Origin: Halalkalicoccus jeotgali B3
GTDB lineage: Archaea; Halobacteriota; Halobacteria; Halobacteriales; Halalkalicoccaceae
DNA: 64,000 nucleotides
NCBI RefSeq assembly: GCF_000196895.1
Contig: NC_014297.1
Coordinates: forward strand, 310,001 to 374,000
Reading direction: 5' to 3'
In this document: positions 57,441 to 61,016 of the stretch, one piece after another
Position numbering within the stretch: position 1 is the first letter of the stretch
How the letters are laid out: every line of letters starts with the position of its first letter
Translations under genes and position numbers: made by a program
Notes under the pieces: generated by a model
Database searches by the model: none
Told to the model about the DNA's origin: nothing
The model's input: the letters and a program-made list of their open reading frames with translations, nothing else

Positions 57441-57773
57441 ATGCCGAGGCCAGAGGTTTTAGACCGGATCAAAGAGGCCGAAGCTGAGGCCGACGAGATC
57501 GTCGCCGAGGCCGAACGCGAGCGCGAACAGCGCATCGCCGAGGCCCGCGCCCGAGCGGAGGAGATCCGCGAGGAGGCCCGCGAGGGGGCGAGCGATCTCG
57601 CCGAAACACGCCTCGCGGAGGCCCGCGAGGAGATCGAGACCGAACGCGAGCGGATCCTGACGCGAGGCGACGAGGAACGCGAGGAACTCGAGGCCCGCTC
57701 GGCCGAGCACAAAGACGAGGTCGTCGAGTTCGTCGTCTCACGGTTCGAGGAGGCGGTGCATGCTCAGACCTGA
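57441..57773 (+). CDS. atpH: A-type ATP synthase subunit H (peripheral stalk)
   Basis: This 110-residue protein is almost wholly charged helix (EAEAEADEIVAEAEREREQR), a continuous right-handed-type coiled coil of the AhaH/stalk family that pairs with subunit E and contacts subunit I. It is the first gene of the operon and overlaps atpI by 14 bp. Confidence 0.9.
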   Translation: MPRPEVLDRIKEAEAEADEIVAEAEREREQRIAEARARAEEIREEAREGASDLAETRLAEAREEIETERERILTRGDEEREELEARSAEHKDEVVEFVVSRFEEAVHAQT

Positions 57774-60003
57774 GCGGATGAGCAAGGTCTCGGTGACCGG
57801 CTCGAAACGCGTCATGGACGAGGCCATCGAGACGATCCACGGGCTCAACCTCGTCCACATGGTCGATTACGACGACCGGTGGGCGGGCTTTCGGCCCGGC
57901 GACCCCGCCGACGAGGCCGAATCGATCTCCGAGAAACTCGTGACGGTCCGCTCGATCGAGAGCATCCTCGACGTCGAGGAGGAGGACGGCGGTCCGAGCC
58001 GGATCGTCACCGACGAGGAGATCGACGCCGAGATCGAGGACGTACGCGGGCGCGTCAACGAACTCGACGATCGCCGGGTCGCGTTGCGAGAGGAGCGCCG
58101 CGAGATCGACGACCGCCTCTCCTCGGTCCGTCCGTTCGCCGCCCTGGGGATCGATCTGGACCTGCTGTCGGGCTATGACTCCCTCGAAACGCGGGTCGTC
58201 GAGGGAAACGAGGCCGCGATCGAGGAAGCGCTCTCGTCGGCCGAGGGCGTCGAGGAGTTCGAGACGTTCGCCGAGGAGGGCGTCGTCGCGATCTTCGCCC
58301 ACCCCACGGCGGGCCACGAGGACGTCCTCGAGGACGCGCTCGTCGGCCTCGAAGTCACGCCGCTTTCGGTCCCCGACGCCGAGTCGAGTCCCGAGGAGTA
58401 CGTCGCCGACCTCGAACGCCGCAAGAGGGAGATCGACGAGGAGCTCTCGGAGCTCGACGGCGAGATCGAGGAGCTGAAACTCGACGTCGCGGGCTTCCTG
58501 CTCGCGGTCGAAGAGCAGCTCACGATCGACGTCGAGAAGGCCGAAGTCCCCCTCTCGTTCGCGACGACGGACCGCTCCTTTATCGCTGAGGGGTGGGTCC
58601 CGACCGAGCGTTACGGCGACCTCGAAAGCGCCCTCGAGGCCGACCTGGGCGAGCACGTCGAGTGCGAGGAGCTCGAACGGGTCGACTACGACGACGTCGC
58701 CTCCGGGCACGGCCACGCCCACGGCGAGGACCCCAGCGACGCCGGCGACGGCGATCGCCAGTCCGCGACCGCGGCCGACGGCGAGGGTCAGTCCGCCGAG
58801 GTTCGCCCCGACGGCGGGCGAAGCGCGAGCGAGTCGAGTATGCACGGCGACGAGCCGCCGGTCGTTCAGGACAACCCCGGCTACGCGAAGCCGTTCGAGT
58901 CGCTGGTCAGCATCATCAACCGGCCCAAGTACTCCGAGTTCGACCCGACGATCTTCCTGTTTCTGACGTTCCCCGCGTTCTTCGGGTTCATGATCGGGGA
59001 CGTCGGCTACGGCATCCTCTATATGGCGATGGGCTACGGGCTCTATCGGGGCTTCGACAGCGACATGCTCCGCAGCCTGGGCGGTATCGGCATCTGGGCC
59101 GGTATCTTCACCTTCGTCTTCGGTATCCTCTACGGTGAGATATTCGGCTTCCATATCATCGCCGACGTGCTCTGGGGCGGCTCCGCGCCCATCCACAAGG
59201 GACTCCAGCCCTACCACGGCAACTGGGCGTTGGGCTGGCTCGTCCTGAGCCTCCTGATCGGCATGCTCCACTTGGCGATCGGGTGGGTCCTGGACTTCGT
59301 CGAGAACTACCAGAGCCACGGCTTCGGTGATGCACTCGGTGAGAGCGGCTCGTGGCTGCTGATGCTCTTTGGCGTCTGGGGGTGGATCTTCGCCGGCACA
59401 CCTCCCTTCGGCGCCGCACCCAGTCTGCTGTACGGTTCCGAGAGCGTCTTCGCCGGCAATCCGTTCCCGCTTGGCTTTGCTGGCTTCCCGACGGTAGTCG
59501 GCTTCGTGGGCCTGGCGGCGTTCTTCGCCGGCCTTGTCCTCTTGGTGCGGGCAGACCCCGTCGAGGGCGTCGAGTTCCTGAACGTCTTGGTCAACGTCCT
59601 CTCGTACACCCGGATCGCCGCGGTCCTGCTGGCGAAAGCCGGAATGGCCTTCGTCGTCAACCTGCTCGTCTTCGGCGTCTTCGTGGTCGGGGAGGGCGAG
59701 GAGGCCGAGTGGCACTTCGGGACCGGCCACGCCCCGAGCTACTACCTCGAACAGGGGACCTACCACGGACACGAAGTCACCGAGGTCATGTTCGGCGGTC
59801 TGTTCCACTCGGGCGTCGGCGGCATTCTGGCGGGCATCCTCATCCTCGTCGTCGGCCACCTGTTCGTGCTTGTGTTGGGTGTCACGAGTGCCGGCCTGCA
59901 GGCAGTCCGTCTGGAGTACGTCGAGTTCTTCGGGAAGTTCTACGACGGCGGCGGGGAGAGCTACGAGCCGTTCGGTCACGACCGGTCCCACACGACCGAG
60001 TAG
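57760..60003 (+). CDS. atpI: A-type ATP synthase subunit I (membrane stator, a-subunit homologue)
   Basis: This protein has 747 residues. The cytoplasmic N-terminal half (about 1-385) has long helical segments (VNELDDRRVALREERREID, LERRKREIDEELSELDGEIE) and an acidic, His-rich low-complexity insert at about 310-360. The C-terminal half has about eight membrane helices, with NRPKYSEFDPTIFLFLTFPA, GFMIGDVGYGILYM and the proton-path Arg region LNVLVNVLSYTRIAAVLLAK. The end is LEYVEFFGKFYDGGGESYEP. It forms the stator half-channel facing the K ring. Confidence 0.94.
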   Translation: MLRPERMSKVSVTGSKRVMDEAIETIHGLNLVHMVDYDDRWAGFRPGDPADEAESISEKLVTVRSIESILDVEEEDGGPSRIVTDEEIDAEIEDVRGRVNELDDRRVALREERREIDDRLSSVRPFAALGIDLDLLSGYDSLETRVVEGNEAAIEEALSSAEGVEEFETFAEEGVVAIFAHPTAGHEDVLEDALVGLEVTPLSVPDAESSPEEYVADLERRKREIDEELSELDGEIEELKLDVAGFLLAVEEQLTIDVEKAEVPLSFATTDRSFIAEGWVPTERYGDLESALEADLGEHVECEELERVDYDDVASGHGHAHGEDPSDAGDGDRQSATAADGEGQSAEVRPDGGRSASESSMHGDEPPVVQDNPGYAKPFESLVSIINRPKYSEFDPTIFLFLTFPAFFGFMIGDVGYGILYMAMGYGLYRGFDSDMLRSLGGIGIWAGIFTFVFGILYGEIFGFHIIADVLWGGSAPIHKGLQPYHGNWALGWLVLSLLIGMLHLAIGWVLDFVENYQSHGFGDALGESGSWLLMLFGVWGWIFAGTPPFGAAPSLLYGSESVFAGNPFPLGFAGFPTVVGFVGLAAFFAGLVLLVRADPVEGVEFLNVLVNVLSYTRIAAVLLAKAGMAFVVNLLVFGVFVVGEGEEAEWHFGTGHAPSYYLEQGTYHGHEVTEVMFGGLFHSGVGGILAGILILVVGHLFVLVLGVTSAGLQAVRLEYVEFFGKFYDGGGESYEPFGHDRSHTTE

Positions 60004-60039
60004 CTCCCCAGCGGACTCTCTCGAGTCCTATGCTACAAG

Positions 60040-60127
60040 TTTACGTGGAGTACAGCGGATCTGCGCCGTCTTTTTTAACAAGTTTTATGATGGCACTGGG
60101 GCGAACTACGGACTGTTCGGGTACTGA
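60040..60127 (+). pseudogene. Vestigial copy of an atpI 3' end
   Basis: Within the 146-bp gap between atpI and atpK one frame reads VFFNKFYDGTGANYGLFGY followed by a stop (60068-60127). It is clearly homologous to the true atpI end VEFFGKFYDGGGESYEPFGH about 130 bp upstream. Upstream of VFF the similarity decays (LRGVQRIC for LQAVRLEY), probably by frameshift. It is more A/T-rich than the functional copy, with different codons, so it is an old or foreign duplicate rather than a recent one. It has no start codon and should not be expressed. Confidence 0.65.
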
Positions 60128-60149
60128 AACCCACCACACGAGATCCATC

Positions 60150-60413
60150 ATGTACGAAATCGCCAACGCACTCGCGGACGCAGTTGTACTGCAAGCAGAG
60201 ACCGGCGGCAGCCCGGCTATCGAGAACACGGGGCTGGCGGCGCTCGCGGTCGGACTGGCGGCGCTGGGTGCGGGCTACGCGGAACGCGGCATCGGCAGCG
60301 CGGCGATGGGCGCGATCGCGGAGGATCGAGATCTGTTCGGTCTCGGGCTGATCCTGACAGTCCTGCCCGAGACGCTCGTGATCCTCGCGCTGGTCGTCGT
60401 GTTCGTCGCCTGA
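60150..60413 (+). CDS. atpK: A-type ATP synthase subunit K (proteolipid ring)
   Basis: This 87-residue protein starts at ATG 60150. Two membrane helices are visible: GLAALAVGLAALGAGYAERGIGSAAMG and the second, LGLILTVLPETLVILALVVVF, with the ion-binding Glu in LPETLVI. This one-hairpin c-subunit forms the rotating ring. It is preceded by the atpI remnant and followed 21 bp later by atpE. Confidence 0.94.
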   Translation: MYEIANALADAVVLQAETGGSPAIENTGLAALAVGLAALGAGYAERGIGSAAMGAIAEDRDLFGLGLILTVLPETLVILALVVVFVA

Positions 60414-60434
60414 ACACCCCCTTTCCCTTCATCA

Positions 60435-61016
60435 ATGAGTTTAGAAACGGTCGCAGAGGACATTCGGGAGGAAGCCCGCGCGCGGGCCCGCGAGATCGAA
60501 GCGGACGCCGAGGAACGAGCCGAGGCTATCGTCGCCGAGGCCGAGGCCGACGCCGCGGAGATCGAAGCCGAGCGAGAGCGCGAGGTCGAACGCGAGATCG
60601 CCCAGGAGCGCGAACAGCGCCTCTCGAGTGCGAACCTCCAAGCCAAACAGAAACGCCTCGAAGCCCGCCGAGACGTCCTCGAGGACGTCCGCGAGCGGGT
60701 CGAAGCGGAGATCGCGGGGATCGAGGGCGAGCGCCGCGAGGAGCTTACGGATGAGTTGCTCGCCGCGGCCGCCGAGGAGTTCGACGAGGACGCATCGGTC
60801 GAGATCTACGGACGGGCCGACGACGAAGCGATGATCGCGGCGCTGCTCGAATCGTACGACGGCTACGAGTTCGCCGGCGAGTACGACTGTCTGGGCGGCG
60901 TCGTCGCCGAGAGCGAGGCCTCGCGGGTCCGTGTGAACAACACGTTCGACTCGGTGCTCGAGGACGTCTGGGAGGACAACCTCAAAGAGGCCAGCACCCG
61001 TCTGTTCGAGCAATGA
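60435..61016 (+). CDS. atpE: A-type ATP synthase subunit E (peripheral stalk)
   Basis: This protein has 193 residues. The first about 85 residues are a charged helix (EEARARAREIEADAEERAEA) that pairs with subunit H. The C-terminal domain (VEIYGRADDEAMIAALLESY, VVAESEASRVRVNNTFDSVL) is the globular head that caps subunit B. It overlaps atpC by 4 bp (ATGA). Confidence 0.93.
   Translation: MSLETVAEDIREEARARAREIEADAEERAEAIVAEAEADAAEIEAEREREVEREIAQEREQRLSSANLQAKQKRLEARRDVLEDVRERVEAEIAGIEGERREELTDELLAAAAEEFDEDASVEIYGRADDEAMIAALLESYDGYEFAGEYDCLGGVVAESEASRVRVNNTFDSVLEDVWEDNLKEASTRLFEQ

Follow-up and report, generated by a model that had tools for sequence, protein, structure and literature searches.

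Internal promoters and transcription start sites have been mapped inside haloarchaeal operons, by dRNA-seq in Haloferax volcanii (PMC4983044) and in the studies of H. salinarum cited there, and in haloarchaeal operon-like structures the widening of intergenic gaps has been described together with the gain of an internal promoter (PMC7760734). The atp genes are not mentioned in the main text of either paper. Haloarchaeal species are likewise known to exchange gene segments by homologous replacement, as in the case of leucyl-tRNA synthetase (PMC3436685), and the subject has been reviewed (PMC4500145).

The locus considered here is the junction between atpI and atpK in the A-type ATP synthase operon (atpH, atpI, atpK, atpE, atpC, atpF) carried by the window, that is, the whole 64-kb stretch of DNA that was analysed, taken from a host genome of 3,698,650 bases across 7 contigs. 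The atpI product matches the solved V/A-ATPase subunit a/I, the stop codon of atpI occupies positions 60001-60003 and the ATG of atpK lies at 60151. The junction comprises the following features, those of transcription being predictions.

57760-60003, + strand: atpI, subunit a/I of the A-type ATP synthase, chimeric (from the open reading frame, mosaic identity and trees)
57760-58850, + strand: native N-terminal part of atpI, of Halalkalicoccus ancestry (from DNA identity and the N-domain tree)
58851-60003, + strand: replaced membrane-domain part of atpI, Halorientalis-like (from the identity profile, tree and AU test)
60004-60073, + strand: spacer from the new atpI stop to the element, fast-evolving, 84% to H. 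paucihalophilus (G002)
60074-60120, + strand: conserved 47-bp promoter-like element of atpK, from the native atpI 3′ end, coding for FNKFYDGTGANYGLFG
60077-60082, + strand: putative BRE-like hexamer, AACAAG here and GGGAAG in the consensus (from its position in the element)
60084-60089, + strand: putative TATA-like box, TTTATG (from conservation)
60113-60115, + strand: predicted transcription start region, CTG before TTCGG (from spacing)
60115-60150, + strand: predicted atpK 5′ leader of ∼36 nt, including decayed atpI tail codons (from tail homology)
60151-60413, + strand: atpK, c-ring proteolipid subunit

A single frame at 60074-60131 reads FFNKFYDGTGANYGLFGY-stop and is homologous to the AtpI C-terminus, as the original prediction had held. 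When atpI-atpK gaps were scanned with an AtpI C-terminal motif, the window scored 65 against a maximum of 33 among the reverse-complement controls (117 loci), and up to 42 of the 47 positions of the element agree in DNA with atpI ends that relatives retain in frame. The homology also extends downstream beyond the limits first given to it, where TGAAACCCACCACACGAG aligns with the codons of the RTHTTE tail in sister atpI genes. No convincing atpI match was found in the part of the gap that precedes the remnant (60004-60073), and a candidate upstream homology (LQVYVEY near 60031) was dropped because the alignment gives it no support. A second atpI copy was sought elsewhere in the genome and not found. 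Another genome, G300, contains two full-length AtpI matches (C2:790810-791862 and C4:179733-180803), which possibly indicates a second ATP synthase locus. A further member of the genus is Halalkalicoccus paucihalophilus DSM 24557 (L030); in H. paucihalophilus (G002) the gap differs by 2 bp and the remnant stop is read through (TGA to GGA). With the stop lost in G002, and with frame shifts and stops in other genera, a conserved small protein gene, which would have refuted the original prediction, was rejected: it is the DNA that is conserved, not the reading frame.

The atpI gene itself is a mosaic. Over 57,760-58,850 its DNA is 85-86% identical to both G004, a sister genome, and G002, and in an N-domain tree all seven Halalkalicoccus rows form one clade (100%). 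Over 58,851-60,003 the identity to G004 drops to 69.7%, from ∼85-90% in both flanks, and sisters other than G002 stand at 68-70%, but identity to G002 is 96.6%, compared with 86-89% in the flanks, which points to a foreign membrane-domain segment common to the window and G002. The left junction near 58,850 was placed by eye in 50-bp windows. In two membrane-domain trees the window atpI groups with Halorientalis (support 97-98%), and constraining the domain to other Halalkalicoccus was rejected (AU p = 0.0004). The half of the gene that encodes the membrane domain (about 58,850-60,003) ends in the GC-rich codons TTC TTC GGG AAG TTC TAC and comes from a Halorientalis-like donor; the N-terminal half is native, so that the proposed gene replacement with a foreign atpI stands for the former and fails for the latter.

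A tract of ∼1.6 kb (58851-60480), compared against L024, shows 95-97% identity to G002 between flanks of 86-89%, and this high similarity spans the element and atpK up to about 60,480. The tract was probably exchanged between the window and G002 lineages at a later time, after their split, carrying the element and atpK along. As a tract of 97% similarity covers the element, identity between the window and G002 is by itself no proof of selection and was not used as such.

The 47-bp element, whose pattern is TTTGGGAAGYTTTATGA-N25-TTCGG, occurs as a single copy in the host genome and is retained upstream of atpK across the order Halobacteriales. It was found in 100 of 103 loci picked by protein similarity, not by DNA, with scores of 19-21 of 21; a score of 19 was reached by none of 515 dinucleotide shuffles (top 18) and by none of 103 reverse complements. 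Two loci, L191 and L098, were excluded from later counts. The strict pattern matches 177 of 392 genomes of the order, nearly always singly, against 4 hits for the reversed control, and a search of the phylum outside the order returned few matches, one of which is an atpI coding end (G404) while the rest look unrelated.

Two arrangements of the element can be distinguished. In gap-type genomes it lies within the atpI-atpK gap without coding context and among very different spacers, and its position in these loci is locked to atpK and not to the atpI stop: the distance to the atpK ATG is 76.4 ± 5.5 bp (n = 103), and that to the atpI stop 139 ± 64 bp. In Haloquadratum (L077 and L101) and Halobaculum (L100) the gaps reach about 370-700 bp, and the element is still found ∼75 bp before atpK. 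In the overlap type the element forms part of the coding sequence at the end of atpI; this arrangement is seen in the sister Halalkalicoccus, in Natrialbaceae and in several further families (f1, f8, f10, f12, f13 and parts of f4, f6, and f17). In the comparison with sister species that had been suggested, four sister genomes have one atpI end, reading GAGTTCTTTGGGAAGTTTTATGAYGGCGGTGGKGAGAAYTACGAACCGTTCGG, with the element inside it and a gap of only 17-24 bp. Outside the overlap-type lineages a gap of 150-400 bp is typical at this place in most haloarchaeal genera, contrary to the supposition that spacing here is normally compact.

These distances bear on the view that the gap holds a functionless scar, decaying neutrally after tandem duplication or gene replacement. 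The partial replacement of atpI is real, and positions that matter for coding alone (the stop codon, frame, and tail) have decayed; a constant distance from atpK in ∼100 loci of many genera, with very different spacers between, is however unexpected of neutral scars, and for the element as a whole a scar is hardly credible and is rejected. Tandem duplication is not needed to explain the remnant.

Where the element overlaps atpI, it dictates the codons of that gene. In 20 overlap-type genes, which were chosen without the DNA pattern, the codons for F, F, and Y are TTT (20/20), TTT (20/20), and TAT (20/20) and those for G, E, and G are GGT (19/20), GAA (19/20), and GGA (20/20), despite a GC3 of 0.87 in overlap-type atpI. 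The sample of 78 gap-type genes encodes the same residues by TTC and TTC (77/77-78/78 each, one gene having Leu at the first site) and by TAC (42/44), with GGC as the glycine codon at the matching site (78 genes). A second count of overlap-type codons is partly circular, since some of its genomes were found by the DNA pattern. The codons track the element and not the protein, and this, more than any other finding, speaks for a function of the DNA itself. Further upstream, at codons 9 and 18 before the EFF motif, Leu is mostly encoded by TTA/CTA in overlap-type genera versus CTG/CTC in gap-type genera, in a sample partly selected by the DNA pattern; these sites perhaps represent an additional upstream element.

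Judged by its sequence, the element is probably an archaeal BRE/TATA promoter with a start region, driving atpK. The haloarchaeal core promoter consensus consists of a TATA-like TTWT and the BRE CGAAA (PMC4983044). TTTATG, which is invariant or nearly so across 45 gap-type genera, fits the TTWT consensus, and at the BRE position there is a purine-rich hexamer, GGGAAG (AACAAG in the window), that differs from the textbook CGAAA. The predicted start region lies ∼27 bp past the TATA centre, primary transcripts of a haloarchaeal core promoter being expected to begin 25-30 bp downstream, and a conserved block occupies element positions 39-47. A conserved secondary structure was sought in the element RNA and no consensus fold emerged, and an Rfam search with the element gave no match, so that a structured RNA was ruled out. 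It is the BRE-like hexamer, TTTATG, and the TTCGG block ∼27 bp on, together with the lack of an RNA fold or Rfam family, that lead to the element being taken as an atpK promoter.

The main rival to this reading takes the element for a signal in mRNA processing or in stability/translation between atpI and atpK, recognised in the transcript instead of serving as a promoter in the DNA. Among the processing sites conserved in H. salinarum and H. volcanii, rotary ATPase genes are enriched and positions lie near start and stop codons (PMC8303175). The atpI gene carries a conserved antisense processing site, and the conservation of the start region (element positions 39-47) and of some leader positions can be cited to the same effect. 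The strongest conservation nevertheless falls on the TATA-like box and the block just upstream, at a promoter-like spacing from the second block, and this, with the RNA searches above, renders an RNA signal unlikely. Alternatively, the element could be a site at which a dedicated transcription factor or chromatin protein binds in this operon, and not a core promoter. Its length and degree of conservation, which exceed those of ordinary core promoters, and its occurrence once per genome would suit such a site, as would the additional A/T-rich synonymous sites upstream in overlap genes, such as those at Leu codons 9 and 18. The TATA-like box, however, stands at a suitable spacing from a conserved start-like block, and by eye the element is not palindromic, which makes such a site quite unlikely.

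In Haloferax volcanii the ATP synthase genes show KAS-seq peaks in mid-operon, which the text does not place at the atpI-atpK gap (PMC10626798) and which are consistent with an atpK promoter. As atpI and atpK are also co-transcribed within the atp operon (PMC6490895), the predicted atpK promoter would be an additional one, and an extra transcript for the multi-copy c-ring subunit is a plausible use for it.

With regard to origin, bacterial and eukaryotic subunit a, Thermus and yeast a/I included, share the protein motif YVEFFGKFYxGGGxxxxPF, and the coding sequence therefore predates the predicted promoter, which would have grown inside it. In the proposed history the promoter would have arisen within the atpI 3′ coding end, a dual-use form that many haloarchaea retain. 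In the lineage of the window, a separate-type membrane segment from a Halorientalis-like donor would then have replaced the resident one, with its right join, as far as can be inferred, at or just before the element; with such a join the 3′ end of the resident atpI would stay behind as a free promoter, and it would have been kept because it carried the atpK promoter. The product seen in the window is what would be expected if a gap-type donor and an overlap-type resident had crossed over within the shared core or beside it. After release, coding-only positions would have drifted (the stop, GG to AC, CCG to CTG) while the core promoter positions stayed.

The identity of the resident sequence can be read from the element. 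Its agreement with overlap-type ends at 42/47 positions, as against 26-30/47 with the gap elements of Halorientalis, indicates that it is resident sequence and not the donor's, and bears out the derivation of the remnant from an older resident atpI. The closest matches are in Natrialbaceae (AAC at positions 4-6) and not in the sister species (GGG), and the resident sequence could thus itself be an earlier exchange. It could be supposed that the gap element arrived with the Halorientalis-like donor, whose relatives do carry a gap element, and that its likeness to the resident atpI end reflects the shared ancestry of all such elements. The poor agreement with Halorientalis elements, the overlap-type codon register kept over the full stretch, and the atpI tail homology make this very improbable. 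That 60074-60120 is the promoter of atpK and later genes, born inside the atpI 3′ coding end and freed by the Halorientalis-like replacement of the membrane segment, can be proposed with good confidence.

Mapped onto the membrane-domain tree, the overlap/gap label changes eight times, at least five of these changes being forced by well-supported branches; the tree gives no direction. Recent freeings that keep coding sense include the window and G002 (FNKFYDGTGANYGLFG), G330 (FGKFYDDSGAKYELFG), f8 g81 (FGKFYEGRRVKYHLFG), f8 g61/g92 (FQKFYGGSVDRYEPLG), and two G003 contigs. CCG (Pro) has become CTG in three recent freeings, CTG being the common form in free elements, and is retained in 26/26 overlap-type genera; the shift after freeing fits a release from protein constraint. 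The G003 bin contains two atpI-atpK junctions, L028 (C52, 9684-10250) and L029 (C1, 1-300), each with a freed remnant before atpK; on C1 the atpI membrane half is near f8 g61/g92 and atpK is Natrialbaceae-like. Either the bin mixes two organisms or replacement took place twice. A more general history is offered tentatively, in which the promoter of an essential operon originated, early in the haloarchaea, inside the coding end of the gene before it, has governed codon choice there ever since, and was freed several times independently by horizontal replacement of that gene, with the element perhaps anchoring the right-hand crossover homology.

The locus would supply a predicted promoter, conserved and probably order-wide, for the subunit of the proton-channel ring in haloarchaeal ATP synthase, and with it a likely explanation of how one operon yields far more K subunits than other components. 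The locus also constitutes a natural experiment, in which the same promoter occurs with and without protein-coding duty in near relatives and both the cost of dual coding and the return to promoter consensus after release become measurable. What looks like the scar of a gene can turn out to be functional, and gene replacement in archaeal operons would be shaped by regulatory sequence within coding regions; if the element does anchor the crossover, the atpI end would be a place where replacements are steered by regulatory sequence.

Like the internal promoters of H. volcanii (PMC4983044), the element sits within an operon, sometimes in the preceding gene, an arrangement in which the downstream gene is expressed separately. 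Unlike them, it is a single element that can be followed through an entire order, to which codon choice conforms and which has switched repeatedly between embedded and free forms. It differs also from the gap widening with promoter gain described previously (PMC7760734), in that the promoter would already have been present in the coding end, and a new gene end placed in front of it would have created the gap. The replacement of the atpI membrane segment resembles known haloarchaeal cases (PMC3436685; PMC4500145) in being a transfer from a distant genus with a mosaic product, although here one protein domain was swapped and an embedded regulatory sequence would have had to be kept.
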